DNA from: a virus
IMG/VR virus record: IMGVR_UViG_3300023292_000219
Coordinates: 1-31,912 of that record
DNA: 31,912 nt
Direction: 5' to 3' (one strand)
Below, one piece after another: positions 10,039-29,051 of this stretch. Position 1 is the stretch's first letter. Each line of letters opens with the position of its first letter. The notes beneath the pieces were generated by a model, which saw only the letters and a program-made list of their open reading frames with translations, was not told where the DNA came from and searched no databases. Both the position numbers and the translations under genes were made by a program.

Positions 10039-10055
10039 TGGGAAAAGGAGATGCA

Positions 10056-11992: not shown

Positions 11993-11993
11993 C

Positions 11994-13302: not shown

Positions 13303-15408
13303 ATGTTTGATCGCCTCTGGGGCCTGATTACAGGCCGGGAGGGGCGAGAAGCCGCAATCAAGGACGCAACAAATAACGCAGTACAAGCCGCCCTGGGCAG
13401 GGTGGTTCAAAGTTTAGACGCTGGCCAACTGAATATATTCGGCGCTGGCCACAGCTACAAGACCATTCCCGCTGGCAAGGTCGCGTCATACTTCAACCGA
13501 TGGCCCTATGCCGCATCCACAGCTATCGCCGACGCGGTAAGCGCCCTTGACTTTAGCGTACAAACTAAGTCGGGCGACGTGTGGGCAGATGCCCCAGACC
13601 ATCCACTAGCGACTGTCCTTGCCAGACCAAACCCCCATATGTCAACCCGCATGATGCTCCGGTACCTTGCCCTTGATTGGTATTTCTTGGGCGAGCATTA
13701 CTGGCATGTGCGATTCAACGGAATGCAGGAACCCGCTGAACTCTGGCCGTTGTTCGGCTCGGTAGAACCTATACCAGACCCGGAGCTATTTATCCGAGGT
13801 TACAAACAGGTATCGCAGACCGAGCGCGGCCAGAAGATTACCTATTACGAGCCCGACGAAGTTGTCCGCTTTGTCATGCCCACGTTTCACGACGCTATCA
13901 ATGGGGCGTCTGACCTTGAAGCCGCCGCCTCGTCTGTCCAGGTTGACGATAAGATTGTTGAAGCCCAGTGGCGAGCGTTCCGGCAAGGCATCTTTTCCAG
14001 TGGCGTGTTATCCATGGGCGAGGAAGACCCCCAGCTTCGCAAGGAATTGTTGGGTGAGTTCAACTCAGCGCACCGTGGCGCCCGCGAAGCAGGCAACGCC
14101 ATTGGCATTGGTACTGACATGAGTTGGACCCCGACAAGCAAGACGCCGCGCGAGATGGACTTTTCAGCTTCGGCCACGCACGTTAGGGACGAGATAACAG
14201 GCGTGTCCCGTGTACCCGATATCGCTATGGGCATTACCCGCGATGTCCAGAACAGGGCAACCGCCGAAGCGTCCGAGTATGTCTTTGCCAAGTGGAACAT
14301 CCTACCCAAAGCAAAGATGATCGAGGACCAGTTACGCAATGACATGGCCCGGAGATACTACGGTGATGATGTCCGCGTTGTAGTGGCGTCACCCGTTCCT
14401 GCTGATGCTGAATCACAACGCGCAGATGACAAGCTGGCCCTTGAGCAACGTATCCAAAGCGTCAACGAGATTAGGGCACAGCGCGGCCTTGATGATGTGC
14501 CTTGGGGCGACGAGCCGCTTGTCCAGGCTAACCTTATCCCGATATCAGACGCGGGTAAAGCCGCCGCTGGCGCTGGCAGTCAAGCACTCGCCATAAACCA
14601 GGAAGTAACCCCAAGCGGCTATAGCGCAGCCGAGCGCCGCGAGATCATGGCGAAGTACGAAAGCGCCCAGGTGCCGTTCTTGAAACAGTACACAAAGACT
14701 TGGGTGCGCATCTTTAGGTCCATTGAAGAACAGTTCATGCCGGAGTTTGACAAGAGCCAGGACCGCCAGGACATGCCCGATGGCATTGTCACACAGGACG
14801 CCGATGACGCGGTAGTGAGTGTCCTAAATGAGAACACGCTTGCAAACCACATGGCCCGCGAAACCAAAGGCGACAACGTGCGTGGCTTGGTTATCGGTGG
14901 TCAGACTGATGGCGAGATTGCCGGGATACCAGGGCGCGGATCGTGGAGTTCAAAGTCGAGTGAACTTATGGCCGCAGCCGCCGAGTTCGGCCCCGCACAC
15001 TATGCCGGAATAGCCAGCACAACGCGCAAGCAGGTTGAGGAAGTCATAGCCAGGGCAATCGCCAAGCGTAAGACGTGGGGCGAAATGCGGGACATGGTAG
15101 AGGATTCATTCTCAAATATGACCGCTGGCCGGGCTGGAAACATTGCCACAACCGAGACCACAAAGCTATTCAACGCGGGCGCCCAGGCGTTCCGCAGCGA
15201 GTTTGATGTACCGTTCAAACAATGGATCGCGTCATACGTCAACACGCGCCCAACACACGCCGCCGCTGATGGCCAGGTCAGACGCAATGGCGACCCATAC
15301 CGCGTTGGCCAAGACAGTATGCAATATCCAGGCGGCGGGATGCTGGCCGAAGAGAACTGCAATTGCAACTGCTATTCTGTTGGCGTACCGACAAAGGCAG
15401 GAACCTAA
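13303..15408 (+). CDS. Portal protein fused to a C-terminal MuF-like minor head domain
   Basis: Residues ~1-420 are an HK97-type portal: the N-terminal helical region, DWYFLGEHYWHVRF, the EPDEVVRFVMPTF stretch, and the stem/crown part around SRVPDIAMGI and ASEYVFAKW. Residues ~560-695 carry a Mu gpF-like head-morphogenesis domain, with ATTETTKLFNAGAQAF, the W-x-x-x-x-D/N-R-T-H-like NTRPTHAAADGQV and a final cysteine-rich NCNCNC. At 701 aa it is nearly twice a usual portal. Separate portal and MuF genes are the norm, so this is a genuine fusion with no stop between them. The ribosome site is weak (TTTGGATGA). It follows terL by 19 bases. Confidence 0.9.
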   Translation: MFDRLWGLITGREGREAAIKDATNNAVQAALGRVVQSLDAGQLNIFGAGHSYKTIPAGKVASYFNRWPYAASTAIADAVSALDFSVQTKSGDVWADAPDHPLATVLARPNPHMSTRMMLRYLALDWYFLGEHYWHVRFNGMQEPAELWPLFGSVEPIPDPELFIRGYKQVSQTERGQKITYYEPDEVVRFVMPTFHDAINGASDLEAAASSVQVDDKIVEAQWRAFRQGIFSSGVLSMGEEDPQLRKELLGEFNSAHRGAREAGNAIGIGTDMSWTPTSKTPREMDFSASATHVRDEITGVSRVPDIAMGITRDVQNRATAEASEYVFAKWNILPKAKMIEDQLRNDMARRYYGDDVRVVVASPVPADAESQRADDKLALEQRIQSVNEIRAQRGLDDVPWGDEPLVQANLIPISDAGKAAAGAGSQALAINQEVTPSGYSAAERREIMAKYESAQVPFLKQYTKTWVRIFRSIEEQFMPEFDKSQDRQDMPDGIVTQDADDAVVSVLNENTLANHMARETKGDNVRGLVIGGQTDGEIAGIPGRGSWSSKSSELMAAAAEFGPAHYAGIASTTRKQVEEVIARAIAKRKTWGEMRDMVEDSFSNMTAGRAGNIATTETTKLFNAGAQAFRSEFDVPFKQWIASYVNTRPTHAAADGQVRRNGDPYRVGQDSMQYPGGGMLAEENCNCNCYSVGVPTKAGT

Positions 15409-15422: not shown

Positions 15423-16490
15423 ATGGAAACTAACGAACTTGTAAAACTTGAGTCAACCTTTGAGCTTGCCGCCCCGCCAACGGAAGATGCAAACGGCGAT
15501 GTTACGTTCTGGGCGATTGGTTTGGACAAGAGCAAGACTCCAAACAGGCGCGGCTTGGTGTTTGATTGGAAGTCGCCAGCGGATATTGACATCACGGCCT
15601 TCCTCAAGAATCCCGTCATGCCATATGCGCACGACAGCGGTTCGGTTCCCATTGGCCGTTGGGAAAAGGTGCAAGTCACAAAGAGCCAGGTCAAACTGTT
15701 TGGCAGAATCCCAGGTGGCGACGATTACCCCGACCTGGCGCCCATTCGCGCCCGTGTTCGGGATGGATACCTCAAGGCAGTGTCAATAGGCTTCTACATC
15801 CGCGAGGCCGAAGAGGTCGCTATCAAGGGCGCTGATTATGCCCTGAAGGTGTTGGCGCTTGAACTTCTCGAATGCTCAGTTTGCACCATTGGCGCACATG
15901 CCGGGGCTGTGATTCAGTCTGACGCGATAGGCAATGGCGACCCCAAGCGGTTTGATGCCCCCGAAGATATCAAGTGGAATACTCAGACCTTTGCCGACGT
16001 CAAGCAGGGCGGCACAAAGGAGATGGTCTATTCGCTTGACGGTATTGCGCTTGACCCGGAGACGCCCGCAACTGTTGCCAAAAGCGCAACGGTTCAAGTG
16101 GACACGCCAGAAGAACCAGCCCCAGACACACAGGCCGCCGCAATTGATAGCCTCAAGGACTCCATATCAGCCCTTACGGATACTGTCAAGGCGCTGTCAG
16201 ATAAGATTGATGCAGAACCAGAGCCCGAAGCGCAAGCAGTGATTGAACCCGACGGCCAAACGCCCGACCCGGAAGATACCGAGCCCGCGAAGCCAGACGG
16301 TGAACTTGCTGCGCCCCCGGTAGTTCCTACGGAGGCAGAGCTAAAGGCCACGGCTGAAAAGGTGTATCAGGACTGGGCCATACAAAACCCGGACCGGATC
16401 GCCGAGTTTGACGCACTCGCAAAGCGTCTAGCACAAGCGCGAGTTGATTCACAAATCGAAGCAAACCTCAGACGAAGAAAGAGCAGGTAA
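15423..16490 (+). CDS. Prohead protease with C-terminal scaffold-like extension
   Basis: The first ~165 residues are an HK97 gp4-type (S78) serine protease: H70 in MPYAHDSGSVPIGRW, the probable nucleophile S121 in LKAVSIGF, and E150 in the following ELLECSV strand. It matures the capsid by removing the capsid N-terminus. The remaining ~190 residues are acidic and proline-rich with a short coiled coil (IDSLKDSISALTDTVKALSD), suggesting a built-in scaffold. CGGAGA precedes ATG 15423, which gives 355 aa; the longer in-frame start at 15363 lies inside the portal gene. The capsid gene follows after two bases. Confidence 0.88.
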   Translation: METNELVKLESTFELAAPPTEDANGDVTFWAIGLDKSKTPNRRGLVFDWKSPADIDITAFLKNPVMPYAHDSGSVPIGRWEKVQVTKSQVKLFGRIPGGDDYPDLAPIRARVRDGYLKAVSIGFYIREAEEVAIKGADYALKVLALELLECSVCTIGAHAGAVIQSDAIGNGDPKRFDAPEDIKWNTQTFADVKQGGTKEMVYSLDGIALDPETPATVAKSATVQVDTPEEPAPDTQAAAIDSLKDSISALTDTVKALSDKIDAEPEPEAQAVIEPDGQTPDPEDTEPAKPDGELAAPPVVPTEAELKATAEKVYQDWAIQNPDRIAEFDALAKRLAQARVDSQIEANLRRRKSR

Positions 16491-16492
16491 TC

Positions 16493-17668
16493 ATGGAAAA
16501 GACCAAAGAAGAATTGGCCTTGGAGAAGGAAGCCGAGGCGAATACCGCCGCGTTGATCGCAAACCCCAAGACCGCAGAGTTCTTGGCGCAGTTTGCATCA
16601 GCCGAACTTATGACCCGTCTTGATGCACACGCCGCGACCATCGTCGCCAACGCCCGCGAGGCGCTTGACACGCGGGAAGCCGCAGCCGCATCACTCGCCG
16701 GGTCCGCCGACACTGGCAAGCGCGAACTGACGCACCCGGAACTGAATGAGTACCTCAGATGTTCGTTCTTGGCCCAGAACAAGCGGCCCTATAAGATTAG
16801 GGACGACTTCGCCAAAGAAGGCGTTGTAGAGCAGACCTTGACCGAAACCGTGGGGTCCGCCGGTGGCGTTGCTGTGCCTGACGCCTTTGACGCCATGGTC
16901 ACCAAGCGCAACGTGGAACCCAGCGTTATCTGGCCCATGTTGACCGTCCGCCCGACATCTTCTGACGCTGTGAAGAGTTGGGAAGTCTTGACTTATGTCA
17001 CCGCCAACACCGGAACAGATGCTAAGTCACAGTCCGCAACAAGCTCAGACGAGGTGGCCGTCACGGAGCCGACGTTTGGCGAAATCAGTTGGTCACTCCA
17101 TCCCCAAGACGCGAGAGTTCCGATCCACCTCAACCTGCTTGACGACGCCGAGACTGACGTTGTTCAGCTTTGCGTTGACCTGGTTGCGGAATCATTCCTG
17201 CACAACCGCGAAACCTACCCGCTGACTGGTAACGGCGCCACCCGACCCTTGGGTTTGCTGAATGCCGCCACGGGTCTGACAAGTTCCGCCGTAACCTCAA
17301 TCACTACAGCCAACGTGATTGACTTTGTGGCCACGTTGCCGCAGAGATGGCGTGCTGGTTATCAGCCCGCGTTGGTGTCTGGTAGCGAGTTGCACTTCAA
17401 GATTGGCTTGGCGTTCGCCAAGGATATCAGGTCCGCCCAATACTTGATGAACATGATGCCCGTATTCAAAGAAGCCGGGAACATGCCCGTTGGTAAACTT
17501 TTGATTGGCGACTTCTCAAAGTACATCGTCTATCAAAACCGTTTGATGCGTATGGTTCAGGGTGTTGCCCCCGAGCGTTGGTGCCTGGAGCTTGTCTTCC
17601 AGGAACGCTGGGACGGCCAGGCCCCGCTGACTGATGCTTTCCGCATCGGCCTCGTGACCACGTACTAA
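16493..17668 (+). CDS. Major capsid protein, HK97 fold
   Basis: The protein has the layout of HK97-type capsids. An N-terminal charged helical delta domain (residues ~1-105) is expected to be cut off by the upstream protease. The shell part starts at TLTETVGSAGGVAVPDAFDA, then PVI-type WPMLTVRPTSSDAVKSWEVL, the P-domain strand EISWSLHPQDARVPIHLN, and NGATRPLGLLNAA. At 391 aa the length fits. The cleavage position is not certain. The gene lies two bases after the protease stop with a weak CAGG ribosome site. It is the last gene of the canonical head order before the foreign cassette. Confidence 0.95.
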   Translation: MEKTKEELALEKEAEANTAALIANPKTAEFLAQFASAELMTRLDAHAATIVANAREALDTREAAAASLAGSADTGKRELTHPELNEYLRCSFLAQNKRPYKIRDDFAKEGVVEQTLTETVGSAGGVAVPDAFDAMVTKRNVEPSVIWPMLTVRPTSSDAVKSWEVLTYVTANTGTDAKSQSATSSDEVAVTEPTFGEISWSLHPQDARVPIHLNLLDDAETDVVQLCVDLVAESFLHNRETYPLTGNGATRPLGLLNAATGLTSSAVTSITTANVIDFVATLPQRWRAGYQPALVSGSELHFKIGLAFAKDIRSAQYLMNMMPVFKEAGNMPVGKLLIGDFSKYIVYQNRLMRMVQGVAPERWCLELVFQERWDGQAPLTDAFRIGLVTTY

Positions 17669-17679
17669 GCTGTTTTCAT

Positions 17680-17704
17680 GGGGGGCGTCCTCGTGGCGCT
17701 CCCC
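17680..17704 (+). other. Hairpin just after the capsid gene
   Basis: GGGGGGCG (17680-17687) pairs with CGCTCCCC (17697-17704), eight pairs with one G-U, around a 9-base loop. No T-run follows. It may stabilise the capsid message end or reduce read-through into the next gene, giving more capsid than downstream product. Confidence 0.5.
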
Positions 17705-17717
17705 TCAAGGAGTTGAG

Positions 17718-17930
17718 ATGCCCTTTGTAAGATTCGTCAAGCGTGAAACCGTGAGGCATACCCCATACGGAGTCGGGACTATTGTTGACATAGACGAGTC
17801 AATGGTTAAGCAGCTTGAGTTGCTTGGTTATCAGCGCAACGACCCGATCATTGAGCGGGTAGAGAAGCCAGCCGTAAACAACATGATTCCCGATATGTTG
17901 GGCGGACAAACAGTATTGATTAGGAACTAG
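17718..17930 (+). CDS. Small hypothetical protein, possible head accessory
   Basis: This 70-aa protein follows the capsid gene and has AAGGAG before its ATG. It is beta-rich at the start (FVRFVKRETVRHTPYGVGTI) and resembles short proteins found beside capsid genes, but I do not recognise a family. Its place between the capsid and the glycosyltransferase cassette makes a capsid accessory role possible. It ends three bases before the next start. Confidence 0.65.
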   Translation: MPFVRFVKRETVRHTPYGVGTIVDIDESMVKQLELLGYQRNDPIIERVEKPAVNNMIPDMLGGQTVLIRN

Positions 17931-17933
17931 CTG

Positions 17934-20696
17934 ATGGTTCGGATATACCCAGTCATAGCCAGCCGTGGACGACAGAACGAGTTAGATAAACAACTCCGAC
18001 TGCTTACCCCACAATTGGCAGACGACGAACTAATCACCGTTGTAATTGACGGTGACAATGCCGGGTATGCCCTTGGCCAACCCAAGCGCGTAAAGTTTGT
18101 TGAGTTGCGCGAGTCCGTGGGCGTGGATTCAGCGCGGCGCATTGGGAATAGCCTCGTGCCGGAAGACGGGATTGTACTTGAAATAGACGACCACGATTAT
18201 GCGGAACAGACCTTGCTGGCAGAGGTTCGCGCCGCCTTTGAGGATGAGTCAACCAACGTCGTCTATTGCGATATCACATTGACTGACCCGGAGAACATCG
18301 TCAACCGCCCCAAGCATAAGACACCCGGGCCATCAATGGAGCGTGGCCATCAGGGTTACGGCATGCGAGCGTATCGCAAGTGGCTTTATGAGGCCGTGGG
18401 CGGATACCCGGACGAGTTCTACCCCGCGAATGATATGGCCCTGATGTGCAAGATCGAGCAGCTTTGTGGCCACAGTGGAATCGTCTTGATACAGAAGCCG
18501 CTTGTCAAGGTCACGGTTGATGGGCAGGGCATCAGCGTCAAGAACAAGGACGCCCAAGAGAAGGCCGCCAGCCGCGTGTTGGACATCGCTTGTAATGCTG
18601 GCTTTGACTTGCCCTGGGAGTTGCGGCAAAAGGATAGCGCATCGAGCAAGCCGCGAACCATCGAGCCCGTTAGTGCGATTGCGGCGCCCACTGTTGCAAA
18701 TGCCAAGGCCCCCAGGAAGCCCCACGTCCTGCTTGTGACTGAAATAGTAGGCCATGGCAGGGGTGGTGGCGAGATGTCAATGTTGGGGTACCTCAGAGGA
18801 GCAGCCAAGCGCGGGTATCGTGTTAGCGCCCTGTACGCCAAGGACGCCGGGGATAAACCGCTTGCGGAGGACTGGCTTGAGCTTCACAAACTTGACACCG
18901 CCAGCCTCAGGGACAAGCGCGTATCTGCAAACGCGGAAGTCAATTCCGCAATTTGCGCCATCAACCCCGATATCATTGTGACAGAGGTCCGCACGTCCGC
19001 CAACATCGCCACGCTATGCGAAGCGCTGAATATCCCACTGATTACGATGGTCCAGTTCTGGCACAATATTATCAAGACCGATAGCGGCGGCTGGGATGCT
19101 CTTCATAAGCGCCCGATAGCCAAAGAAGCCCAAGACACATGGGGCGTTGCGCGACTCAGTAAAAGCGCGGCCCTGCTGGCCAATAGCGACTTTACCGCAA
19201 GCGTCATTGAGGATGTGTTCGGGCGCAAGGCAGCCGCTGTTGTCTATCCGCCCATTGATGCCGCAAGCGTGAAGGTGGACAAGCGCGAGGCTAGGTATGT
19301 TGTGTGTCCAAGTGTCCAAGCTGGCAAGGGTAGCATGATATTCTTGTCACTGGCCGAGCGACACCCCGAGATAGACTTTCTGTTGCTGGCTGGCGACAAC
19401 AAGCATTCCCGGGAATCGGATGTCATTGATAGGGCTGGATCGCTGGCAAATGTTACCGTCAATAACGAGTGGGTTTCCGACATGCGAACCGTCTACGCTG
19501 AGACGGCTTGTTTGTTCATTGGAACACAGACTTGCGAATCATTCAGTCGCGCATCAGCAGAAGCCAGGGCCAACGGTATCCCGCTACTGGTCTCTGACGC
19601 CGGGAACCTTGTCAACATGGCAGCAGACGGCGCGGGCGTTGTGGTACCCAGGAACGCGCCGATAGAAGCGTGGGATGCAGGGCTTGTCAAGGCGCTTGCT
19701 TTGACCCCAGAGGCTACCAGTGCGTTTTGTGTGGACCATTCGGGTAGATTTGCCAAGGCCCTTGACAATAACCGCAACCTAAGCGATGTGGTGTTTATCA
19801 AGCCCGACGCGCCCGGCGTATCTGAGGGAGTTGCGCAGTTCGGCCAGACTTGCGGGACATCTGAAATTGAGTGGCTTCCGAATGCCGCAGACGTGGTGCA
19901 ATACTCGCTTACCATTCTGCCCGGCCACTATAGCGCGAACTTCTCCGAGCAAGTCAATAACAAGTTGGCTTATTGGTGGTGTTCACATACTGCGCAGATG
20001 GATACGAGCCGCCACGAGATGGACAACCTACTCATGGCGCTTGGCGATGTAGTTCAACATGGCAACCGCTTCATGTGCCTAACCTCGAAACCGGACGCGG
20101 ACGCTTGGGCCAAGGCGCTAGGCACTGACCGGATCAAGTGGCTTCCCAATGTAATGACCATTCCCAAGGCGCCCAAGAAAGCCAAATACAAAGAATGCGG
20201 CGTCTTTATCCCCGGCCCGTTCGGAGTTCGCAAGAATATCTATACCGCAATGCTGGCCTGCTCGATGGCCAAGGCAGAGGCGCACGTCACATCAATAAAC
20301 ATAGCCAAGTGTCCGAACCTAGAGACCATGGCGAAGCGGCTTGGCGTTCGGCTGCATGTCCACGACTGCCCCACGGTTGCGGATGTAAGAGCAGTCGCCA
20401 GCCGTTGCCACGCGGGGATTATGGTTTCAACCGCTGAGACGTATTGCTTCGCGGCGGCTGAGATTGTCGCGTCCGGTACGCCATGCGTTTATTGGGATGG
20501 CATACCGATTCTGCGCGGCGGGCCTAAAGAGTTATGCGTTATCAACCCAACCGACATAGACGATATCGTGCCGTCACTCTCAGCGGCTATAGTGGGCGGT
20601 AGCTTGGCCAAACAACAGCTTGCACAGATGCGAACCCTTACCGACAAATGGAACGCAGCAGCCCGGGCAACCCTGGAGGATATTCTTGATGCGTGA
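17934..20696 (+). CDS. Triple-domain glycosyltransferase (GT-A plus two GT-B modules)
   Basis: Three modules can be read. Residues ~1-215 are GT2-like: VIASRGRQNELDKQL at the start, the acidic metal-site candidate LEIDDHDY, and a later GGYPDEFYPANDMAL segment. Residues ~260-590 are GT4-like: GHGRGGGEMSML near the nucleotide-sugar cleft and E535-x7-E543 (ESFSRASAE). Residues ~620-920 are a second GT-B half with IPGPFGVRKNI and E835-x7-E843 (ETYCFAAAE). So one cytoplasmic polypeptide could add up to three sugars. The AGGA site is 10 bases upstream. Such genes are unusual between capsid and connector genes; the natural acceptor may be a virion protein, which is inference. No sugar-nucleotide synthesis gene accompanies it. 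Confidence 0.88.
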   Translation: MVRIYPVIASRGRQNELDKQLRLLTPQLADDELITVVIDGDNAGYALGQPKRVKFVELRESVGVDSARRIGNSLVPEDGIVLEIDDHDYAEQTLLAEVRAAFEDESTNVVYCDITLTDPENIVNRPKHKTPGPSMERGHQGYGMRAYRKWLYEAVGGYPDEFYPANDMALMCKIEQLCGHSGIVLIQKPLVKVTVDGQGISVKNKDAQEKAASRVLDIACNAGFDLPWELRQKDSASSKPRTIEPVSAIAAPTVANAKAPRKPHVLLVTEIVGHGRGGGEMSMLGYLRGAAKRGYRVSALYAKDAGDKPLAEDWLELHKLDTASLRDKRVSANAEVNSAICAINPDIIVTEVRTSANIATLCEALNIPLITMVQFWHNIIKTDSGGWDALHKRPIAKEAQDTWGVARLSKSAALLANSDFTASVIEDVFGRKAAAVVYPPIDAASVKVDKREARYVVCPSVQAGKGSMIFLSLAERHPEIDFLLLAGDNKHSRESDVIDRAGSLANVTVNNEWVSDMRTVYAETACLFIGTQTCESFSRASAEARANGIPLLVSDAGNLVNMAADGAGVVVPRNAPIEAWDAGLVKALALTPEATSAFCVDHSGRFAKALDNNRNLSDVVFIKPDAPGVSEGVAQFGQTCGTSEIEWLPNAADVVQYSLTILPGHYSANFSEQVNNKLAYWWCSHTAQMDTSRHEMDNLLMALGDVVQHGNRFMCLTSKPDADAWAKALGTDRIKWLPNVMTIPKAPKKAKYKECGVFIPGPFGVRKNIYTAMLACSMAKAEAHVTSINIAKCPNLETMAKRLGVRLHVHDCPTVADVRAVASRCHAGIMVSTAETYCFAAAEIVASGTPCVYWDGIPILRGGPKELCVINPTDIDDIVPSLSAAIVGGSLAKQQLAQMRTLTDKWNAAARATLEDILDA

Positions 20697-20895
20697 CACG
20701 CTTGACATTGTAATGCCAGCGGTGCGGCGCCCGGAGATATTAGACAAGGCGCTCGAATCCTGGAAGCCATTTTTCGCGGGCTACGATTGCCGCCTGATAG
20801 TCAACCTTGACGCGCTGATAAGCCCTGAATGGCTGGCGAAGCGCAATTACATGGTGGTCGCAAGTGACCGAGATTGGGAGGGAAGCGATGAGTGA
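20689..20895 (+). pseudogene. Truncated GT-A glycosyltransferase fragment
   Basis: The 68-codon frame starts like a GT2 glycosyltransferase (LDIVMPAVRRPEILDKALES, then YDCRLIVNLD) but ends before any D-x-D metal site, so it cannot be a complete enzyme. GGAGGA precedes the ATG, which overlaps the large glycosyltransferase by 8 bases. Its end overlaps the next methyltransferase start. It is best read as the remnant of a deleted third glycosyltransferase, though it may still be translated. Confidence 0.6.
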
Positions 20896-21481
20896 CTTTG
20901 ACGTAAAGGATGTGTGCTATCCGAAGATTGGGAGCCTGATAACTGAGGCAGACGCCTTGCTTCTGCAGAAGTGTTGCGGGATTGCGGACGCCAAGACCAT
21001 CCTTGAGATTGGAACCAAGCGCGGGGGAAGCGCCATTGTCTTGGCCAAAGAAGTTGAGAAGCGCAAGGGTCGCTTGTACTGCATGGACCCGAACTTCAAC
21101 GCGAACCTTGCGGGGGACCTGGAAGACTTTGAGGTAGACCATCTGATAGAACTTATCTGCGGTTACTCGCCATGGGCTGGCCGTGGGATAGTGCCAGATG
21201 AACTTGACATGCTATGGATCGACGGCGACCACAGCATCCTTGGCGCGTTGGCGGACTTCATCTATTGGGAACCGCGTGTGCGCGTTGGTGGCGTTGTGGC
21301 GTTCCATGATTACTCTAGGCGCGGAGTTGTACCCAAGACAGCCAGCGTAGAGACCGCCGTTGACTTGATCCTACATGAGCGCAAAGACCTTGAAGAGATT
21401 GGCTTTGTTGGCAAGCCCGATGGCGGCACGATTGCATTCCAAAAGACCGCGCTACCCGAACTGGATGACAGCAATGTCTAA
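20888..21481 (+). CDS. Class I SAM methyltransferase (Methyltransf_24/rhamnosyl O-methyltransferase-like)
   Basis: The motif ILEIGTKRGGSAIVLAKEVE (residues ~38-57) is a SAM-binding loop. DMLWIDGDHS and GGVVAFHDYSR (~115-150) are the H/D metal-associated strands of the TylF/CmcI-like Methyltransf_24 group, which often O-methylates sugars. GGGAGGG lies six bases before ATG 20888. The product of 197 aa is complete. It belongs to a run of overlapping glycan-type genes, so an O-methylated sugar is the likely substrate, but none is demonstrated. Confidence 0.82.
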   Translation: MSDFDVKDVCYPKIGSLITEADALLLQKCCGIADAKTILEIGTKRGGSAIVLAKEVEKRKGRLYCMDPNFNANLAGDLEDFEVDHLIELICGYSPWAGRGIVPDELDMLWIDGDHSILGALADFIYWEPRVRVGGVVAFHDYSRRGVVPKTASVETAVDLILHERKDLEEIGFVGKPDGGTIAFQKTALPELDDSNV

Positions 21482-22238
21482 TCACCTTGACATAGACCTA
21501 TACGGGCAGCCAGTCAAGATTGTTGACGAATACATCAATGAGTACGTTTACCGCGAATGCAACAAGGGCCATTGGAAGCCCGAGCTATTCGGCGTGTTTG
21601 ACAAGTTCCTGAAACCGGGTGACGTGTACTTTGATATCGGAGCCTACGTTGGCGCCACGACGCTATACCCCGCCGCGCTTGGGTGTGATGTCTACGCCTA
21701 CGAACCGGACCCGTCTGCATTTGACGCGCTGTTGGCTAATGTCAAGCTGAATCCGGCACTTGAAAGCCGCATCAAGCTATCGGCAGATGCTATCGGAACC
21801 GAAGTCGGGTGGACTGCGATTGGACCACGCGGCGACATGGGGAGCAGCAAGTCTGGGCTTCTCTTCGCCCAAGACAACCCGGACGCCATCGACATCTTTG
21901 GCCTCACGCTATCAGCCGCGATGGATCAGAACAAACTTGACCGCCTGGACTTCCTAAAAGTCAACGTGCAGGGGTCAGAAGCGTCGCTATTGACCGCCGC
22001 AGAGGGCGTTCTAAAGCTCCACAAGCCCGTTGTCCACGTCTATATCAGGCCGTTCAACTGTGCGGACCTTTGGAAAGACATGGCAAAACTTGTACGCGCA
22101 ATGGACAGCTACCCGCACTGTTATTCAGAACTTGGCGAACCGTTGACCGCAACCGATGTCATGATGTTAGCAAAAGCCAAGAAAGATAAGGGAGACTTCA
22201 AGTTGATATTTTGTCATGAGGAATGGCCGAATGGCTGA
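21474..22238 (+). CDS. FkbM-family methyltransferase
   Basis: The protein has the FkbM layout: FLKPGDVYFDIGAYVGATTL (SAM loop), DVYAYEPDPSAFDALLANVK, and later LDFLKVNVQGSEASLLTAAE, the conserved K-x-D/N-x-E/Q-G strand of the family. In that last motif the usual D reads N and the usual E reads Q, which is worth noting. FkbM enzymes O-methylate sugars and polyketides. No good ribosome site precedes ATG 21474; it overlaps the previous gene by 8 bases and probably relies on coupling. Length 254 aa. Confidence 0.82.
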   Translation: MSNHLDIDLYGQPVKIVDEYINEYVYRECNKGHWKPELFGVFDKFLKPGDVYFDIGAYVGATTLYPAALGCDVYAYEPDPSAFDALLANVKLNPALESRIKLSADAIGTEVGWTAIGPRGDMGSSKSGLLFAQDNPDAIDIFGLTLSAAMDQNKLDRLDFLKVNVQGSEASLLTAAEGVLKLHKPVVHVYIRPFNCADLWKDMAKLVRAMDSYPHCYSELGEPLTATDVMMLAKAKKDKGDFKLIFCHEEWPNG

Positions 22239-22896
22239 CGCGTCTGGATATATCAAGCCGTATCTGCAAACGCGCCCCGATGTCACAGAAGGCATCCCGG
22301 AGCGTGTCGAGGCAGATCCCGAATGTGCCAAGGCGAAGCGTGAAGTTATCGCGCTTCTGCCAGACGACATTGACGGCTATATCCTCAGCATTGGCCCGGC
22401 TGCCGGATGGGAACTTGACGAGCTTCGCAAGCGTTGCGAGAAGTCAACTAACATTCTTGGCGTGACCCCATTTGAGGAAGAGGCCGAACTTTGCCGAGCG
22501 CTTGGCCATACTTGCGTGATAGGCGATATGCACAAGCTGGCTTGCTTATGGTCTGGAATGTTTAGCCTGGTGTTTGCGTCACACGTTCTTGAGCATAGCC
22601 CGGCGCCATACGTAGCCCTGCGCGAGTTCTATCGAATGCTGCGCCCCGGTGGTTATGTCCAAATCGTAACGCCGGAGCCGTATGGAGTGATTCACCTTGG
22701 CGACATTGAACGAGCAAAGCGCCACGTTGATATCCCGGAGCATATCTTTTTGCCCTCGGCGGAGACGCTTATTGTGATGTTACGAAAGGCCGGCTTCAAC
22801 TTTTTGCGATATAGCGAAGTCGCGCAGACATGCCAGGGCAAGCTGAACTATTGGCATAGGGTATGGTTGGCTCAAAAGCCATCGGAGGTCACATGA
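22231..22896 (+). CDS. SAM methyltransferase (Methyltransf_11-like)
   Basis: The SAM-binding strand is ILSIGPAAGWELDEL, followed by ILGVTPFEEEAELC and then VFASHVLEHSPAPYVALREF and MLRPGGYVQIVTPEP, which is the standard order of motifs I to VI for a type-11 methyltransferase. HVLEH is the motif common in glycan-pathway methyltransferases. GAGGAA precedes ATG 22231, giving 221 aa, with an 8-base overlap on the FkbM gene and a 4-base overlap with the next one. Confidence 0.8.
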   Translation: MADASGYIKPYLQTRPDVTEGIPERVEADPECAKAKREVIALLPDDIDGYILSIGPAAGWELDELRKRCEKSTNILGVTPFEEEAELCRALGHTCVIGDMHKLACLWSGMFSLVFASHVLEHSPAPYVALREFYRMLRPGGYVQIVTPEPYGVIHLGDIERAKRHVDIPEHIFLPSAETLIVMLRKAGFNFLRYSEVAQTCQGKLNYWHRVWLAQKPSEVT

Positions 22897-23903
22897 ATAC
22901 CAGAGTTTTAATTCTCGGCGGTAGGCGATGGGACCAGGCGATTATCACCATCGGGCGCGGCTTCCTGAAGATAGGTTGCGCGGTTCGGTATCTGCCCACA
23001 CGTCGCCCCGGTACGCACTCAGAGCCGCTTGAAAACGTCCATGATGTTATAGGGCAGATTGTCAAGGAGTTTGAGCCTGATATTCTGTTCTGGGTTATGT
23101 GCAAAGAAGATTGCCCCGTTGGGCTTATGGATCACCTCAAGCAGCTACGCCCCGAGATGGCTACTGTGTTCCATAGCTTCGACGATCCCCACATGGTAGA
23201 CAATAATCCCCCAGAGTGCATCCCGGGCTTTGACTTTGCCGTGACTTGTTGCGCTGGCTCTATTCCATGGTACGCGGATCGCGGCGTCAAGGCCATCAGG
23301 TTCTGGCCCCCGCCAGGCTTCGACCTTCACGGCAAGGCGAGCGCTAACCCCGCTGAGAAGTGTGACATCTCATTTGTAGGCACTAACGTATATCCCAGGG
23401 ATAAGTACCCGGAAGTCATAGCCACACGCGCCGAGATACTCCGGGCCGTTGCGGGTCTTGGAACCATCAATATTTATGGCCCGTGGGGCGAGCGCCGCTT
23501 TGATTGGGGCGGAGAGTTTGGCGTCCCGGAAATGAAAAAGAGTTGGCGCGGATTCAGGAAGTATGAAGAGTTGCCGGGCGTGTATGCCGCGTCCAAGATC
23601 AATTTGAGTTCACACGTTAGACCGGATGGGTTTCAGTATCTCAACGAGCGAACCATAAACGCCATGGGGGCTGGCGGCTTTATGCTAGTCGATAAGGTCG
23701 CCGGGATGGAAGAGATATTTACTGATGGCGTCCACTGGGCAACGTGGGAAAGCCTAGACGAGTTATCAAGCAAGGCCAAGTTTTATCTGGCAAACCCAGA
23801 CAAGCGCAAGGCCATAGCCGCAAAGGGCCGCGAGAAGGCGCTCAAAGAGTTTAGCAATAAATGTCATGCACACGCTGTATTGAAATTGTGCGGAAAGGAT
23901 TAG
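22893..23903 (+). CDS. CgeB-like GT-B glycosyltransferase
   Basis: The N-terminal Rossmann half reads VLILGGRRWDQAIITIGRGF then FEPDILFWVMCKEDC. The C-terminal half has CDISFVGTNVYPRDKYPEVI and SSHVRPDGFQYLNERTINAM with AGGFMLVDKVAGMEEIF, the signature of the CgeB/Glyco_trans_1_2 group. CgeB proteins are linked to spore-coat glycosylation, i.e. to decoration of a protein shell. GGAGG lies upstream of ATG 22893. The 336-aa length fits. It closes the sugar-modifying cassette just before the fibre-like genes. Confidence 0.85.
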   Translation: MNTRVLILGGRRWDQAIITIGRGFLKIGCAVRYLPTRRPGTHSEPLENVHDVIGQIVKEFEPDILFWVMCKEDCPVGLMDHLKQLRPEMATVFHSFDDPHMVDNNPPECIPGFDFAVTCCAGSIPWYADRGVKAIRFWPPPGFDLHGKASANPAEKCDISFVGTNVYPRDKYPEVIATRAEILRAVAGLGTINIYGPWGERRFDWGGEFGVPEMKKSWRGFRKYEELPGVYAASKINLSSHVRPDGFQYLNERTINAMGAGGFMLVDKVAGMEEIFTDGVHWATWESLDELSSKAKFYLANPDKRKAIAAKGREKALKEFSNKCHAHAVLKLCGKD

Positions 23904-23905
23904 CC

Positions 23906-24235
23906 ATGCCACAAGACCCAACAGACTCAGGAGTACCGTCCGTCCAGGCGCCCAGAGTGAACTACTCGAAGCCCGTTACCGTAGACGTTTATCCGAGCAT
24001 ACAGAATACCCTTGCTGCCGCCGACGATGACCGGGTATGGGTTACCGTTACGAACCTGACTACCACGCCAGTCTATATCGGCGTTGGCGATCACGGCGCC
24101 ATAGTTGGGCGCGGCATTCCTTTGATGACAACTGGCTCTAGCGTTGAAATTGACGACAGCACCGGAGCAGTTTACGCGATCCACGAAAGCACTGGCGCCA
24201 AGGCGGTTGCGGTACAGTCGGCCACCAAGGCCTAG
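23906..24235 (+). CDS. Beta-rich hypothetical virion-type protein
   Basis: AAGGA precedes ATG 23906; the 109-aa product is rich in V, T and G with short strands (RVWVTVTNLTTTPVYIGVGD). This resembles small beta-sandwich proteins found near phage head or fibre genes. No catalytic residues or membrane segment are seen. It follows the CgeB-like gene by two bases and precedes the fibre gene, so a head-surface role is possible. Confidence 0.65.
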   Translation: MPQDPTDSGVPSVQAPRVNYSKPVTVDVYPSIQNTLAAADDDRVWVTVTNLTTTPVYIGVGDHGAIVGRGIPLMTTGSSVEIDDSTGAVYAIHESTGAKAVAVQSATKA

Positions 24236-24248
24236 GAGATACAGCAAG

Positions 24249-25553
24249 ATGAAACTAAACAACGTAGCCCCAACAACTGGCGCACGACGCGACGCAGTAG
24301 CCACCACGGTTGCACTTGCGGCTATCGTTGGCGATCCAGATGGCGTTATGCGCCGAGTAACCGCTGATACGTTTGATTATCAGTATGCTGTCAACGCGAC
24401 AAGTGGCGGCGATGTTACCCCAGATAGCGGGATTGGTCAGTGGTTCAGGCTGAGTGCTGCGGCCGCGGTTAGCTATGGCACCACATCCGGGACAAGCGCC
24501 CAAGGTAACGATGGACGACTGAGCGATAAGCGCGATCCGAATGACCATACCCACGCGAGCGTTGGGACTGGCGCTAAACTTAGCCAGGCCAATACCCACG
24601 AAAGCCCAGATACCGATTCGGCGTCTGGTTCGTTACATCACACAATCGGAACTGGCGCGAATCAAGCGGCGGGCGGTGCGGATGGCAGGCTTGCCGATAA
24701 GCGAGATCCAAACGATCACACCCATGCGTCCGTTGGGACCGGGGCCAAACTCTCGCAAGCGAACACGCACGAAAGCCCAGACACGGACGCTAGCGCGGCC
24801 GCCCTGCATCATACGATAGGCACAGGAGCGAATGAATCCTGCGGCGGTGCTGACGCCAGGCTAACAGACGCGAGGACACCAAGCGCCCACGCGGCATCAC
24901 ACGCTAGCGGCGGCACGGACGCGCTGACGTGGGAACGGTGGCACCTGATCGCAACGTCAAAGTATACCGCCACGCCATCAAGCACATCAGTTATCACCAT
25001 GTCAGATACTGCGCTGATGGCGGTTGGCTTGCCCGTCAAGTTCACCATTTCCAGCACAACGTATTACGCCCAGATCACAGCGCTATCAGCAGACACGAGC
25101 ATTACCATTGCTGGCGCCACAATGGGCGGCGACCTTACCGCGCTCTTTGTCGGGACCGCCGAGATGGTCCAGGTTGTATCCCTCTTTGTGGGGTCAACAT
25201 ACGCAGATGGAACGGAAGCAAACCTTCTGGCCGTGGATATGTTTTCGCCCATGAAGTGGTCCGGGCCAAAGGCTTACCTTGTGGCATTCTCCGGCGTACA
25301 AATGACAGTGGACACAGGGACCGAGCCCAAGATAAATATTCAGATCAACAACGCCGCAGTATCAACTGCCGATAGCAATAACGGTATCCAGCTTTCAACG
25401 TCTGGAACGTGGGTTGATAACTCGGCTATCGCAATCAGCACAACGAATTATGACATCAACCGTGGCGAAGAACTTGAAGTGGATTGTACTGCTGCGGGCG
25501 GAACTGGCGACGCTGAAAACCTGACAGTTCAATGCGTCTTCGTGTTGGAGTAA
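24249..25553 (+). CDS. Fibre-like protein with two 57-residue repeats, possible head fibre
   Basis: Residues ~1-90 are a small N-terminal domain. Residues 93-149 and 150-206 are tandem repeats, each with DKRDPNDHTHASVGTGAKLS and LHHTIGTGAN. The H-T-H and G-N-D-G-R-L-S-D patterns are typical of trimeric phage fibres, in which histidines bind metal on the axis. Residues ~225-434 are a Thr/Ser-rich beta domain ending in VQCVFVLE. Tail fibres normally follow the tape measure; here the gene lies upstream of the connector genes, which points to a head-attached fibre. AGGAGAT precedes ATG 24249. Confidence 0.75.
   Translation: MKLNNVAPTTGARRDAVATTVALAAIVGDPDGVMRRVTADTFDYQYAVNATSGGDVTPDSGIGQWFRLSAAAAVSYGTTSGTSAQGNDGRLSDKRDPNDHTHASVGTGAKLSQANTHESPDTDSASGSLHHTIGTGANQAAGGADGRLADKRDPNDHTHASVGTGAKLSQANTHESPDTDASAAALHHTIGTGANESCGGADARLTDARTPSAHAASHASGGTDALTWERWHLIATSKYTATPSSTSVITMSDTALMAVGLPVKFTISSTTYYAQITALSADTSITIAGATMGGDLTALFVGTAEMVQVVSLFVGSTYADGTEANLLAVDMFSPMKWSGPKAYLVAFSGVQMTVDTGTEPKINIQINNAAVSTADSNNGIQLSTSGTWVDNSAIAISTTNYDINRGEELEVDCTAAGGTGDAENLTVQCVFVLE
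24525..24866 (+). repeat. Two tandem 171-bp coding repeats in the fibre gene
   Basis: Copy 1 is 24525-24695 and copy 2 is 24696-24866, each 57 codons. Their first 31 residues are identical in protein although the DNA differs at many third positions and even uses AGC versus TCC for one serine. A degenerate further copy may begin at 24867. Confidence 0.85.
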
Positions 25554-25556
25554 GCA

Positions 25557-26045
25557 ATGATAATTAGGCACCCAAGAGCAAGGGCGATAGCGTCTGGCGC
25601 CCCGGCGCTAATTGACGATTATGACACATCGTCTGACGATGATGCTCCACTGACCGCAACAATGGGCTTTGAGTTGGCCGCCGCCTCTGACTCCGTTTTC
25701 AAGGCGGTGATCAAGATCAAGAACTCAAGCACCGCCGGCAACGTGACCCTGCGAATAGAAACAGATTCCGGCACAGAGCCAAGCGGAACGCTGGCAGACG
25801 CTAATGCCACAAAACTTGTGTATGTGGACGAGGCTAACTTCGCTTGGATTGAGTTTGAGTTCCCGGCGCAGTTTTCGCTGGCTGGCAGCACGCAATATTG
25901 GCTCGTTGCAAGTACCGCAGGAGCGCACAGGTGGGACGGCCACCGCAACGCGATATCGCCGAATGACCTTGGCGCAGAGTGGGGTGGTTCATGGCAATTC
26001 TATGGCAGCGGATTCTTTTTCCGCGTGTACGATATGAGCGGATAA
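25557..26045 (+). CDS. Beta-sandwich virion decoration-like protein
   Basis: This 162-aa protein reads as a jelly-roll or carbohydrate-binding-like fold: FKAVIKIKNSSTAGNVTLRI, ETDSGTEPSGTLADAN, then TQYWLVAS and FFFRVYDMSG at the end. The pattern of a T-G-x-P-S-G-x-L loop and a final Y-D strand is common in surface modules of phage fibres and bacterial adhesins. GGAG precedes the ATG. It lies directly after the fibre gene and before the connector, so capsid or fibre decoration is the best guess. Confidence 0.65.
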   Translation: MIIRHPRARAIASGAPALIDDYDTSSDDDAPLTATMGFELAAASDSVFKAVIKIKNSSTAGNVTLRIETDSGTEPSGTLADANATKLVYVDEANFAWIEFEFPAQFSLAGSTQYWLVASTAGAHRWDGHRNAISPNDLGAEWGGSWQFYGSGFFFRVYDMSG

Positions 26046-26049
26046 CCCT

Positions 26050-26634
26050 ATGGCGCTAACAATACTCAGCCTGGCAGACGCGAAGACTTTTCTAGGCGTC
26101 ACGGTGTCAACAGAAGATACAACCATCGAGGCCCTGTTGTATTCCAACGAGGCCGGGATGGAAAGCTACTGTAGGCGATACCTGATAGACACAACAGTAA
26201 CGGAATATCTTGATGGCTGCGGCAAGGTTTACATCTTCCTGCGCGAGCCCGCCAGAGCAATAACCAGTATTTACGAGGACGGTACTAGAGCGTGGGCAGT
26301 ATCATCTCTTGTGGCATCTTCGGACTATCAGCTTGTGACGCTCCGCAATGGAACCGGAAAGCGTGTCCAATATTACGATAGCGCGTGGTCTGCGGGCCAG
26401 GCAAACATTCGGGTTATCTATTCCGCCGGATTCGCGAGCATCCCGACTGACGTTGTGCAGGCCGCCCGTATACAGATTGGCAGAGCATACGCCGAGTGGA
26501 AACGTACCGAAGCTGGCAAGGATGCGCTGGCAGAGAACGACGTGGTCGGATGGTCTCAGACATGGCTTGCCAAAGAAGGGCTTGACCCGGCTTGTAAACA
26601 GCTTCTGGGCCCATATAGGAACTACGGGATATAG
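26050..26634 (+). CDS. Head-tail connector, HK97 gp6-like
   Basis: The opening LSLADAKTFLGVTVSTEDTT and the early helical segment IEALLYSNEAGMESYCRRYL are typical of the gp6-like connector that docks under the portal. A beta region (YQLVTLRNGTGKRVQYY) and a helical end (VVQAARIQIGRAYAEWKR) follow. The length, 194 aa, is a little long for the family. This gene resumes the canonical head-to-tail order broken after the capsid gene at 17668. The ribosome site is weak (GCGGAT). Confidence 0.85.
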   Translation: MALTILSLADAKTFLGVTVSTEDTTIEALLYSNEAGMESYCRRYLIDTTVTEYLDGCGKVYIFLREPARAITSIYEDGTRAWAVSSLVASSDYQLVTLRNGTGKRVQYYDSAWSAGQANIRVIYSAGFASIPTDVVQAARIQIGRAYAEWKRTEAGKDALAENDVVGWSQTWLAKEGLDPACKQLLGPYRNYGI

Positions 26635-26635
26635 C

Positions 26636-27013
26636 ATGTACGATAAGCGCCAATATCCAGATACATACGACCTTTACCGCCCGACGATTGCGAAAAGCAC
26701 AACGGGCGAGAGGACCAGAGCGGTTAGCAATGCTACGGCCAGCGACCAGCCTTGCTTGTATGTCTCTGATAGGACCGCATCGGGCCGAGGCGGAATGCTA
26801 AAGGACGGTGAAGGCATTGCTTTTGAGCATGGCGCAGAGTTGCGCATACCCCAGGGTGTTGACGTGAGAGCCGACAAACGCGGCGAGCGTCCAGACAAGG
26901 TAATTGTGACGAGCGCTGGCGGAACAACTGTATCTATCCCGTTTACCGTTGTGTGGGTAGCGTCTGAGTTTGGCGAGTACCAAAAGGTTTATTTGCAGGA
27001 GGCCCCGGCATAA
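26636..27013 (+). CDS. Head-closure/head-tail adaptor-like protein
   Basis: The 125-aa frame starts at ATG 26636, one base after the previous stop, with GGGAT upstream. It has a short polar start (YDKRQYPDTYDLYRP) and a beta-barrel-like remainder ending in FGEYQKVYLQEAP. Position between the gp6-like connector and the gp10-like protein, together with size, fits the stopper protein of siphophages. The sequence itself is not diagnostic. It overlaps the next gene by one base. Confidence 0.65.
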   Translation: MYDKRQYPDTYDLYRPTIAKSTTGERTRAVSNATASDQPCLYVSDRTASGRGGMLKDGEGIAFEHGAELRIPQGVDVRADKRGERPDKVIVTSAGGTTVSIPFTVVWVASEFGEYQKVYLQEAPA

Positions 27014-27531
27014 TGGCTAATGCAAGAACAAGAGCCTTTGGCCAGCTTGGCAAAATGGTGGACGTGTCAGAAGTCTTAGGGTTTTTTGATCGAATGATAG
27101 CCAAGACGCCAGAGAAGACCAGGCGCAACATGGGCAGGGCCGTCACGTATTGGAAAGCCCAAAGCGTCAAGCATTCCCCGGTTAGTGGAACCAAGTATGG
27201 ACAAAAGCAATCTGCCAAGGGGCCGTCAAGAAGTGGCCACCGTGGCGGCATCCTTAGGAAGTCTATGACGGGATTTGTGCAAGCCCAGGGCGGTAACATT
27301 GTTGGCGGAATTGAGAACGCAACGGACTATGCAATCTGGCTACTGGCTGGAACGCGGTACATAGCGAAGGGTAAGGTAATGGCCTGGCGTGAAGGTGACG
27401 AGCCCATCAACACTTGGCCCGCGAAGGCGAGAGGCAACCCAAGAGCAAAGTTACCCATCATCATACCGTATCGCGCGTTGGCGCTTGAGATGTTCATAGA
27501 TGGCTTGTCGTCTGACTTGACCAAGGGATAG
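27013..27531 (+). CDS. HK97 gp10-like tail-completion protein
   Basis: AQSVKHSPVSGTKYGQKQ, then GGILRKSMTGFV and DYAIWLLAGTRYI follow the HK97 gp10 pattern, in which an S-P-V-x-T-G-x-L-x-x-S element is followed by a Y-A-x-x-x-E-x-G-T element. Here the two halves are separated by a basic insertion. The 172-aa protein is expected at the head-tail junction. It overlaps the previous stop and ends one base before the next start. Confidence 0.82.
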   Translation: MANARTRAFGQLGKMVDVSEVLGFFDRMIAKTPEKTRRNMGRAVTYWKAQSVKHSPVSGTKYGQKQSAKGPSRSGHRGGILRKSMTGFVQAQGGNIVGGIENATDYAIWLLAGTRYIAKGKVMAWREGDEPINTWPAKARGNPRAKLPIIIPYRALALEMFIDGLSSDLTKG

Positions 27532-27532
27532 C

Positions 27533-27988
27533 ATGGCAACCGAGATCAAAAAACTTAGGCAGCTTTTATACGAGTGGCTAAAGGATGATGTCACGGCCCT
27601 AACCACCCTGATAAGTGACAGGGTGTACCCGCTATGGCCACCTGATAACGCCGTCTATCCATGCGCGGCATATAACATCAGGTCCAGAGAAACGACAAAC
27701 GACTTCGGCGCTCCTACGTGGGGCGGCTTTGTAGAGGTTTATCTGTTCAGCCCATCACAAGACACCCTAGACGACATGGAGGATGCGATAGTTGAATACG
27801 TGTCAAACAACCCGGAGACCATCAACACGACGCTATCCGATACATCTACGGTACTGACAAGTAACTTCAAGCTGATGGGGGTTGAGCAAGACCCCCGCGA
27901 CGCTTGGCAGGAAGATACATTTTTAGTGATTACCCGTGTACTCAGATTTGAACTTTTCTGCGTCAAGCGCATTGGTGCTTGGGCATAA
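27533..27988 (+). CDS. Tail terminator protein (DUF3168-like)
   Basis: The N-terminus, LRQLLYEWLKDDVTALTTLI then DRVYPLWPPDNAVYPCAAYN, is that of siphophage tail terminators, which cap the tail tube. The middle FVEVYLFSPSQDTLDDMEDA matches the conserved strand and helix. At 151 aa the length is right, and the gene lies just before the tail tube gene. The start follows the previous stop by one base (TAGCATG). Confidence 0.8.
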   Translation: MATEIKKLRQLLYEWLKDDVTALTTLISDRVYPLWPPDNAVYPCAAYNIRSRETTNDFGAPTWGGFVEVYLFSPSQDTLDDMEDAIVEYVSNNPETINTTLSDTSTVLTSNFKLMGVEQDPRDAWQEDTFLVITRVLRFELFCVKRIGAWA

Positions 27989-28008
27989 CTTAGAACAGGA
28001 GCATTATC

Positions 28009-28548
28009 ATGGCGAATTTCCCGTCAGCCGCAAAGTCTGCCCTTGAAACAATGAAGGCTGGCCCCGTATCTTTGGTGTTTGACCCCGACGGCGCAAGCGA
28101 AGTTGAAATCTTCGTGCGCAATGGAATCAGCTTCACGTTTGCCCGCGCACAGGAAACCATCGAAACTGACCTTGTTGGCGTCTATGACCTGTACAGCGCT
28201 GGTGATGCCGTCACGTTTGAGATTCGCACAGACGAGTTTTCAAGCGAAGCGTGCGCCGTTCTGTTTATGGATCAGGAAACGCATAACAGTGTGTATCAAC
28301 CGTTTGGCCAAGCCGCAGGCGAATCTGGCAGGACATCGGCTCTTGCAGTTCGTGTGCGCCCATGGCAAACCAGAACGGCCAGCACATTGCAGCTTGAATT
28401 GTGGATTGTGATTCCCGAAGGCGATCAAGTAAGTGCCTGGGCCACTGGCGAACAGTGGAACAACACTCAATCATTTAGAGCCCTGCCCGACCTCGCTAAG
28501 CCGAACGGCGGATTGATCGGAAACTTGACAGTCGCAGCCCGTAGCTAA
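28009..28548 (+). CDS. Major tail tube protein
   Basis: This 179-aa protein has the composition of a tail tube subunit: alternating beta strands, an ETIETDLVGVYDLYSAGDAV loop, and the aromatic SAWATGEQWNNTQSFRAL towards the end. An AGGAG site lies before the ATG, the expected strong signal. It stands between the terminator and the G/GT chaperones, the standard siphophage slot. CTCC-AAAT-GGAG just after it (28550-28561) can form a small hairpin that includes part of the next ribosome site. Confidence 0.82.
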   Translation: MANFPSAAKSALETMKAGPVSLVFDPDGASEVEIFVRNGISFTFARAQETIETDLVGVYDLYSAGDAVTFEIRTDEFSSEACAVLFMDQETHNSVYQPFGQAAGESGRTSALAVRVRPWQTRTASTLQLELWIVIPEGDQVSAWATGEQWNNTQSFRALPDLAKPNGGLIGNLTVAARS

Positions 28549-28571
28549 CTCCAAATGGAGGAATAGAGAGA

Positions 28572-29051
28572 ATGATTACCGTACAAAACGAGAACCTGCC
28601 TTGTGGCAAGTGTTGTGATATCGGAGAACCGACCCTGGGAGGCTGGGGTCGGCTCTTCGAGCAGTTCACAGAACAGCAGGAAGGAGCCATCATTCAACTC
28701 GTGACGTCGTTCTACAACGTGGACGAAACAAACGAAGACGAAATGGCCGACGCAATCTCCAAGTCATGTAACATGCTTGGCCCGCTCATTCGGACCGCGC
28801 CATATTTAGTTGGTGCATTCGTGCGTGAAACAACCTATTCGCCAAAGTCCAGAAGCCCGATATTCGCCAGCAGTTCAGAATGCGCGGACTCAATTTCAAT
28901 TGAAGATGCCGAGTTTGTGTTTCAGAAGTTGAGGGACTCGGGATCGTTTGCCGCCATAGTGAAACGAGTGGGAAACTGGCTGAGGGGTTCGGTGCAGAAG
29001 ATGCGGGACATGAAGCAAGTTCCCCCGGCATCCGAAAGCCAGACCCCATAA
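28572..29051 (+). CDS. Tail assembly chaperone, short form (G-like)
   Basis: This 159-aa protein is in the chaperone slot between the tail tube and the tape measure and is mainly helical. It starts with a small cysteine cluster, CGKCC, followed by LFEQFTEQQEGAIIQLVTS. It would hold the tape measure during tail assembly. The frame contains GGGAAAC at 28970-28976, correctly phased for -1 slippage, about 75 bases before its stop. Ribosomes that do not slip make this short form. No strong sequence match is claimed; the call rests on position, size and the frameshift. Confidence 0.85.
   Translation: MITVQNENLPCGKCCDIGEPTLGGWGRLFEQFTEQQEGAIIQLVTSFYNVDETNEDEMADAISKSCNMLGPLIRTAPYLVGAFVRETTYSPKSRSPIFASSSECADSISIEDAEFVFQKLRDSGSFAAIVKRVGNWLRGSVQKMRDMKQVPPASESQTP
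28970..28976 (+). other. Programmed -1 frameshift site GGGAAAC
   Basis: The heptamer is phased G-GGA-AAC in the short chaperone frame, the X-XXY-YYZ rule. It resembles the GGGAAAG site of lambda G/GT. The -1 frame is open from here to 29365. No strong downstream hairpin was found; only GGGG (28984-28987) with CCCC (29022-29025) is obvious. Confidence 0.82.

Follow-up and report, generated by a model that had tools for sequence, protein, structure and literature searches.

To our knowledge, virion glycosylation by phage-encoded enzymes has been demonstrated in few phages, chiefly mycobacterial ones. In FoulBall, a mycobacteriophage of cluster O, genes 33-36 lie between the portal and the protease and encode three glycosyltransferases and an O-methyltransferase, the latter (gene 33) matching TylF and PF13578. 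According to PMC11600133, which cites Freeman et al. 2023, the capsid and the tail tube are the targets of the cluster O enzymes, and a passage in PMC12619734, relying on the same work, places the glycans at the C-termini of the capsid and tail tube subunits. Part of PMC11256854 ties phage glycosyltransferases to capsid glycans in Maravista (cluster F1, a relative of Che8). As described in PMC7826918, the capsid glycans of the chlorovirus PBCV-1 involve A111/114R, an 860-amino-acid (aa) protein with three glycosyltransferases, and A064R, in which two glycosyltransferases are fused to a sugar O-methyltransferase. Here, we analyzed a cassette of glycosyltransferase and methyltransferase genes in the linear IMG/VR record IMGVR_UViG_3300023292_000219, which may be a fragment and whose whole length of 31,912 bases we call the window. 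The cassette (17934-23903) consists of six consecutive plus-strand frames in the interval from the capsid gene to the adaptor gene of an uncultured tailed phage. We consider it fairly probable that its enzymes attach an O-methylated glycan, whose acceptor and sugars we infer, to virion proteins of the phage itself. A non-exhaustive literature search found no publication on this locus.

To characterize the cassette we combined a survey of open reading frames (ORFs) with family scans, in which 30 window proteins were checked with Pfam or PHROGs and the other, mostly small ORFs stayed outside the scan. The six frames lie at the places proposed in an earlier interpretation made from the letters alone (the sequence-only reading), and the scans agreed with its calls of a triple-domain glycosyltransferase, three methyltransferases and a CgeB-like glycosyltransferase (Table 1). 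The N-terminal part of the 920-aa glycosyltransferase matches PF00535 slightly under the Pfam cut-off (2.2e-4, 21.6 bits against 23.3), DHD occurs at residue 86, and an EX7E motif, which we take to be the GT4 catalytic motif, is present in both GT4-like regions at residues 535 and 835. The "broken glycosyltransferase" of the sequence-only reading exists as a 68-aa frame that begins at 20689 within a longer mechanical ORF (20620-20895), but its sub-threshold match lends that label little support. The frames overlap as they were called, but the translations point to later starts, probably near 21465 for the FkbM gene and at 22893 for the CgeB-like gene, with which the apparent overlaps shrink.

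Like FoulBall, the window combines glycosyltransferases with a sugar-type O-methyltransferase in an unbroken run of head-module genes, and its methyltransferase also falls in the Methyltransf_24/TylF group (PF13578), a likeness at the family level only (BLASTP E 0.68). Unlike the FoulBall genes, which occupy the portal-protease interval and have no annotated or recognised FkbM or CgeB-like gene among them, the window cassette occupies the capsid-adaptor interval. PBCV-1 is a eukaryotic giant virus, and the likeness to it is one of architecture and logic only. Closer parallels in position came from a search with the FkbM protein, which returned at least 80 loci, of which 50 records (49 of them non-self) were surveyed. 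In two other phages FkbM lies in the same slot between capsid and gp6. The order in L222 is terminase (phrog_9), capsid (phrog_10), adjacent phrog_4603 (sialyltransferase) and phrog_2111 genes at 4987-6301, FkbM and gp6 (PF05135); in L293 it is a capsid-like protein, called from its position and a weak SU10_MCP match, a collagen/F5-8C fibre, a CgeB-like protein (PF13524), FkbM, a GT2 protein and the adaptor (phrog_442). The FkbM proteins of both phages are just 26-29% identical to that of the window, and the CgeB-like and GT2 proteins of L293 have no BLASTP match to window proteins at E 0.01. Two further records carry FkbM near head genes: L241 has genes for an epimerase, RmlD, a C-methyltransferase, GT2, Methyltransf_24, FkbM and a pyruvyl-transferase between terminase and portal (3658-12358), which suggests that this phage produces the sugar donor itself, and L278 has CgeB-like, FkbM and GT4-like genes upstream of a terminase-like gene assigned by eye.

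A simple hydropathy scan, made without a topology program, found no strongly hydrophobic segment in the six cassette proteins, the highest mean over 19 residues being 1.41. Glycosylation of the virion is the best supported explanation of the cassette because its enzymes are free of such segments and stand in the head operon, because L222 and L293 offer parallels in the same slot and because mycobacteriophages provide the precedent. Gene order and strand suggest that the cassette is expressed together with the head genes. Nucleotide sugars supplied by the host would then serve the 920-aa protein and the CgeB-like enzyme as donors for glycosylating an abundant virion protein, with the capsid and the tail tube protein as the likeliest acceptors, and the attached sugars would be O-methylated by the methyltransferases. 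A candidate for the tail tube gene, assigned from its position, is at 28009-28548. The sequence-only reading also relied on host donors, as it saw no gene for sugar-nucleotide synthesis; none was recognised among the 30 scanned proteins of a record that may be a fragment. For an aquatic phage the benefit might be protection from binding or proteolysis, or tuning of receptor use, by analogy with the immune recognition observed in mycobacteriophage therapy, as reported in passages of PMC11600133 and PMC11256854.

Four sibling IMG/VR records carry the locus, and their aligned blocks over the cassette match the window at 99.89-100% identity; two DNA pattern scans revealed no sibling past these four (one scan matched all of them, the other G001 only). 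Both G001 (3300005918) and G003 (3300023256) lack 21556-22124, a 569 bp stretch encoding FkbM residues 61-250, which is nearly the whole domain. The deletion junction is identical in the two records and has no microhomology, and the frame shifts to reach a stop at codon 82. G001 and G003 look like one lineage because they have three substitutions in common (16674, 19951 and 21116). We rejected the alternative that the 569 bp segment had been inserted in the longer allele and took the short allele as derived, because FkbM aligns with a methyltransferase of phage Trina across both flanks of the junction. G002 (3300023244) is full length with an intact FkbM gene, while G004 (3300025669) has no substitution relative to the window over 16400-21555 and terminates exactly at the junction, at 21555, as an assembly fork between the two alleles would make it do. 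The IMG numbers 3300023227, 3300023237 and 3300023253 stand for Ace Lake, Antarctica (PMC9716671), and the nearby numbers of G002 and G003 hint at the same origin for these siblings, although none of the four sibling numbers appears in the main text of two Ace Lake papers. The remaining cassette frames are open in every sibling as far as its record extends: G001 and G002 span all six genes, G003 ends within the CgeB-like gene and G004 within FkbM. Since the frames are thus preserved, FkbM excepted in two records, and several family matches exceed curated cut-offs, we regard the cassette as beyond chance. The set of three methyltransferases is not fixed, with the FkbM domain lost in two of the four siblings, and the glycan may vary accordingly within the population, the lineage lacking FkbM making one with one methylation fewer.

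The region downstream of the cassette is variable as well. Fibre- and decoration-like genes follow the cassette at once in the window, as the sequence-only reading described, but this arrangement is not fixed, for G001 has 73 bp in place of window positions 23940-26049. Over 26050-31912, G001 differs from the window at 126 positions, 124 of them before 27500, and beyond that point the two are near identical again. The divergence over 26050-27500 and the loss of the fibre genes look like the recent exchange of one segment. In G001 the cassette directly precedes the adaptor without fibre genes, yet the five cassette frames other than FkbM are open, so the fibre and decoration genes cannot be the only acceptors. 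The sequence-only reading had named capsid, fibre and decoration proteins alike; the capsid or the tail tube now appears a likelier acceptor than the fibre genes. Three records span both variable loci, and whereas the window and G002 have FkbM and the fibres, G001 has lost both. The fibre-like gene also contains an internal tandem duplication (24524-24691 and 24695-24862, ~72% identical).

Several results weigh against virion glycosylation. The window glycosyltransferases have no significant BLASTP similarity to those of FoulBall or Maravista, which is why, although the cassette likely works like the cluster O type, we do not file it in that lineage. In Maravista, unlike in the window, the glycosyltransferase genes lie near the far end of the genome, with neighbours shown without sugar-methyltransferase annotation; genes thought to act on the capsid can therefore sit far from the head genes. 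Nor do FkbM genes gather around portals. The 49 non-self FkbM records contain PF05065 in 2 cases and PF04860 in 7 (one sub-cut-off), and when the seven with a portal match (among them G092, the sub-cut-off one) were pooled, FkbM lay within 12 kb of the portal in 4/7 against 3.24 expected under uniform placement and within 8 kb in 2/7 against 2.32. Because this pooled distance is no better than chance, we treat L222 and L293 as examples and not as a statistic. Among terminase relatives, furthermore, PF05050 was found in 0/49 and PF13692 over the cut-off in 0/49 (one weak match, in G011). Within the cassette itself, five of the six substitution sites among siblings alter the amino acid, a small sample that offers no support for strong purifying selection, and the stub and the deleted FkbM domain mark some parts as dispensable.

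We weighed three other explanations. During infection the cassette could alter a polysaccharide of the host surface (O-antigen, capsule or S-layer glycan), blocking competing phages or aiding release, which we consider unlikely. In bacteria the CgeB-like, GT4 and FkbM families mainly serve cell-surface or secreted glycans. Serotype change driven by phages is known, as mentioned in a passage of PMC12619734. Against this, the cassette sits among head genes, in line with the head-module parallels of FoulBall, L222, L293 and L241. Moreover, gtr-type serotype-conversion clusters are defined by a membrane glycosyltransferase and a flippase, and the hydropathy scan detected neither kind of protein among the six. 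A decaying moron, formerly useful and now shedding genes with little function left, would account for the stub, for the FkbM domain deleted in two of four siblings and for the residue-altering substitutions; this last pattern slightly lowered our confidence in virion glycosylation and raised that in decay by as little. Decay nevertheless remains quite unlikely in our judgement, as neither the window nor its siblings, to the extent of each record, show any other frame interrupted, and EX7E is retained in both GT4-like regions. Finally, the enzymes might glycosylate and methylate hypermodified phage DNA. DNA glycosylation occurs in some phages according to a passage in PMC12619734, and the terminase relative L025 has an annotated glucosyl transferase beside an annotated pyrimidine hmase. 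On the other hand, no gene for modified-base synthesis or base hypermodification was recognised in the 30 scanned proteins of this possibly fragmentary record. Methyltransf_24 and FkbM enzymes are known to act on sugars and small molecules, and we judge the involvement of DNA very improbable.

The phage population may maintain a variable particle coat, in which the FkbM step is polymorphic and the fibres are swapped with a fibre-less allele, next to a glycosyltransferase core and a capsid that hardly vary. Several phages would then use the capsid-gp6 slot to diversify, adjusting glycan and fibre jointly, a reading that we find doubtful as a whole. Virion decoration is known already from mycobacteriophages; the apparent novelty lies in the enzyme set, in the slot and its two parallels, and in the segregating FkbM deletion together with the fibre exchange. 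The locus and its same-slot parallels suggest that virion glycosylation may be wider, with other enzyme sets, repeatedly assembled in the capsid-adaptor gap, and with the FkbM deletion allele nature provides a comparison with and without a single methylation step.

Table 1. Positions of head, cassette and fibre/decoration features in the window, with family matches
Feature	Coordinates	Strand	Matches and remarks
Terminase	~11955-13283		phrog_979
Portal with head-morphogenesis C-terminal part	13303-15408		
Protease	15423-16490		
Major capsid protein, HK97 type; upstream border, main candidate acceptor	16493-17668	+	phrog_10 1.2e-20; TIGR01554 9.2e-29
70-aa protein between capsid and cassette, no family assigned	17718-17930	+	sub-cut-off matches only
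920-aa three-region glycosyltransferase (GT2-like N-terminus, two GT4-like regions)	17934-20696	+	PF13692 6.4e-12 in two stretches; PF13439 1e-6
68-aa stub, possible GT2-type glycosyltransferase remnant	20689-20895	+	sub-threshold RGP match, E 0.028
Methyltransf_24 (O-methyltransferase-like) protein	20888-21481	+	PF13578 4.5e-19; PF01596 3e-5
FkbM-family methyltransferase	21375-22238	+	PF05050 5.9e-11 (43.2 bits; cut-off 22.7); TIGR01444 3.6e-17 (63.2; cut-off 37.7)
Methyltransf_23/11 class I methyltransferase	22216-22896	+	PF13489 2.2e-14; PF08241 1e-12
CgeB-like glycosyltransferase	22863-23903	+	PF13524 5.7e-25 (88.4 bits; cut-off 25)
Small fibre/decoration-like protein	23906-24235	+	weak PHROG matches only; absent from G001 from 23940 on
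Repetitive fibre-like protein	24249-25553	+	phrog_1197, phrog_21962 (tail proteins); absent from G001
Decoration-like protein (162 aa), labelled from the sequence-only reading and position	25557-26045	+	no usable family match; absent from G001
gp6-like head-tail adaptor; downstream border	26050-26634	+	phrog_442 2.2e-21
Tape measure	at 29352		

Reading frames and family scans confirmed a tailed-phage head module in the window, and with it both borders of the cassette that the sequence-only reading had set, the capsid end and the gp6-like start. The order from capsid to cassette held too, but with the extra 70-aa gene in between. The G+C content of the cassette (0.53-0.57 in 1-kb windows) is inside the range of the remaining window. 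A protein search of 50,697 annotated phage records gave zero matches for the 920-aa protein, a single, partial one for the CgeB-like protein, two matching records for the Methyltransf_24 protein, two for FkbM (both phage Trina) and two for the capsid, both distant. In a sequence search of solved structures, no match was found for the Methyltransf_24 protein (E up to 0.001), for FkbM and the 920-aa protein (E up to 0.01) or for the decoration-like protein (E up to 1), and the fibre had one weak match (E 0.078). The CgeB-like protein matched six lectin sequences over short stretches, which we took as chance likeness. Single-sequence structure predictions of the CgeB-like protein and of the 162-aa decoration-like protein, with mean pLDDT (predicted local distance difference test) scores of 33.3 and 41.5, were left unused.

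Terminase-based searches returned at least 80 viral and at least 80 genome loci. An ORF set covering 170 relative loci contained recognisable capsid homologues in 8 of them and recognisable gp6 homologues in 9. Six loci (L025, L057, L109, L126, L135 and L179) have both, with a capsid-gp6 gap of 0.7-4.0 kb against 8.4 kb in the window, a difference that we count in favour of virion glycosylation. The domain survey covered 50 records (49 relatives and one sibling) and 14 control genomes. PF00535 and PF13578 were each found in 2/49 relatives (one PF13578 match sub-cut-off), while the same searches detected PF13692 and PF00535 in 14/14 control genomes, PF13578 in 10/14 and PF05050 in 3/14. With its families so rare among terminase relatives, the cassette looks like a sporadic acquisition. 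The FkbM records differ in that 19/49 have GT2 (PF00535) alongside FkbM, 17 of them over the cut-off and two below it; we count this co-occurrence for the virion reading, although both sets were picked by us and record lengths differ.

Related enzymes do occur in scattered relatives. In G035 a TylF/Methyltransf_24 protein adjoins a GT2 protein on the opposite strand, ~20 kb from its terminase. A local iterated search seeded with the cassette proteins found, after the terminase of L068, a gene related to the GT25-like protein of Maravista. In L150/G054, from a metagenome-assembled genome with the label Thermoplasmata, a GT11/FkbM/GT2/GT47/Methyltransf_24 block separates the terminase from portal-like genes, the portal being called from size and order. 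A large block of GT11, FkbM, GT2, GT47, Methyltransf_24 and LicD-like genes was seen in L203 (7063-16059; G054:C66), a virus-like contig in the Thermoplasmata-labelled assembly whose host assignment is doubtful. As for the terminase itself, its nearest relatives among the annotated phages listed are the Methanothermobacter phages psiM2/psiM100 (48-49%), followed by Gordonia phages. Just upstream of it, at 10038-11992, lie a ParB-like gene, assigned by eye with no Pfam match, and a gene for a radical-SAM protein (PF04055).

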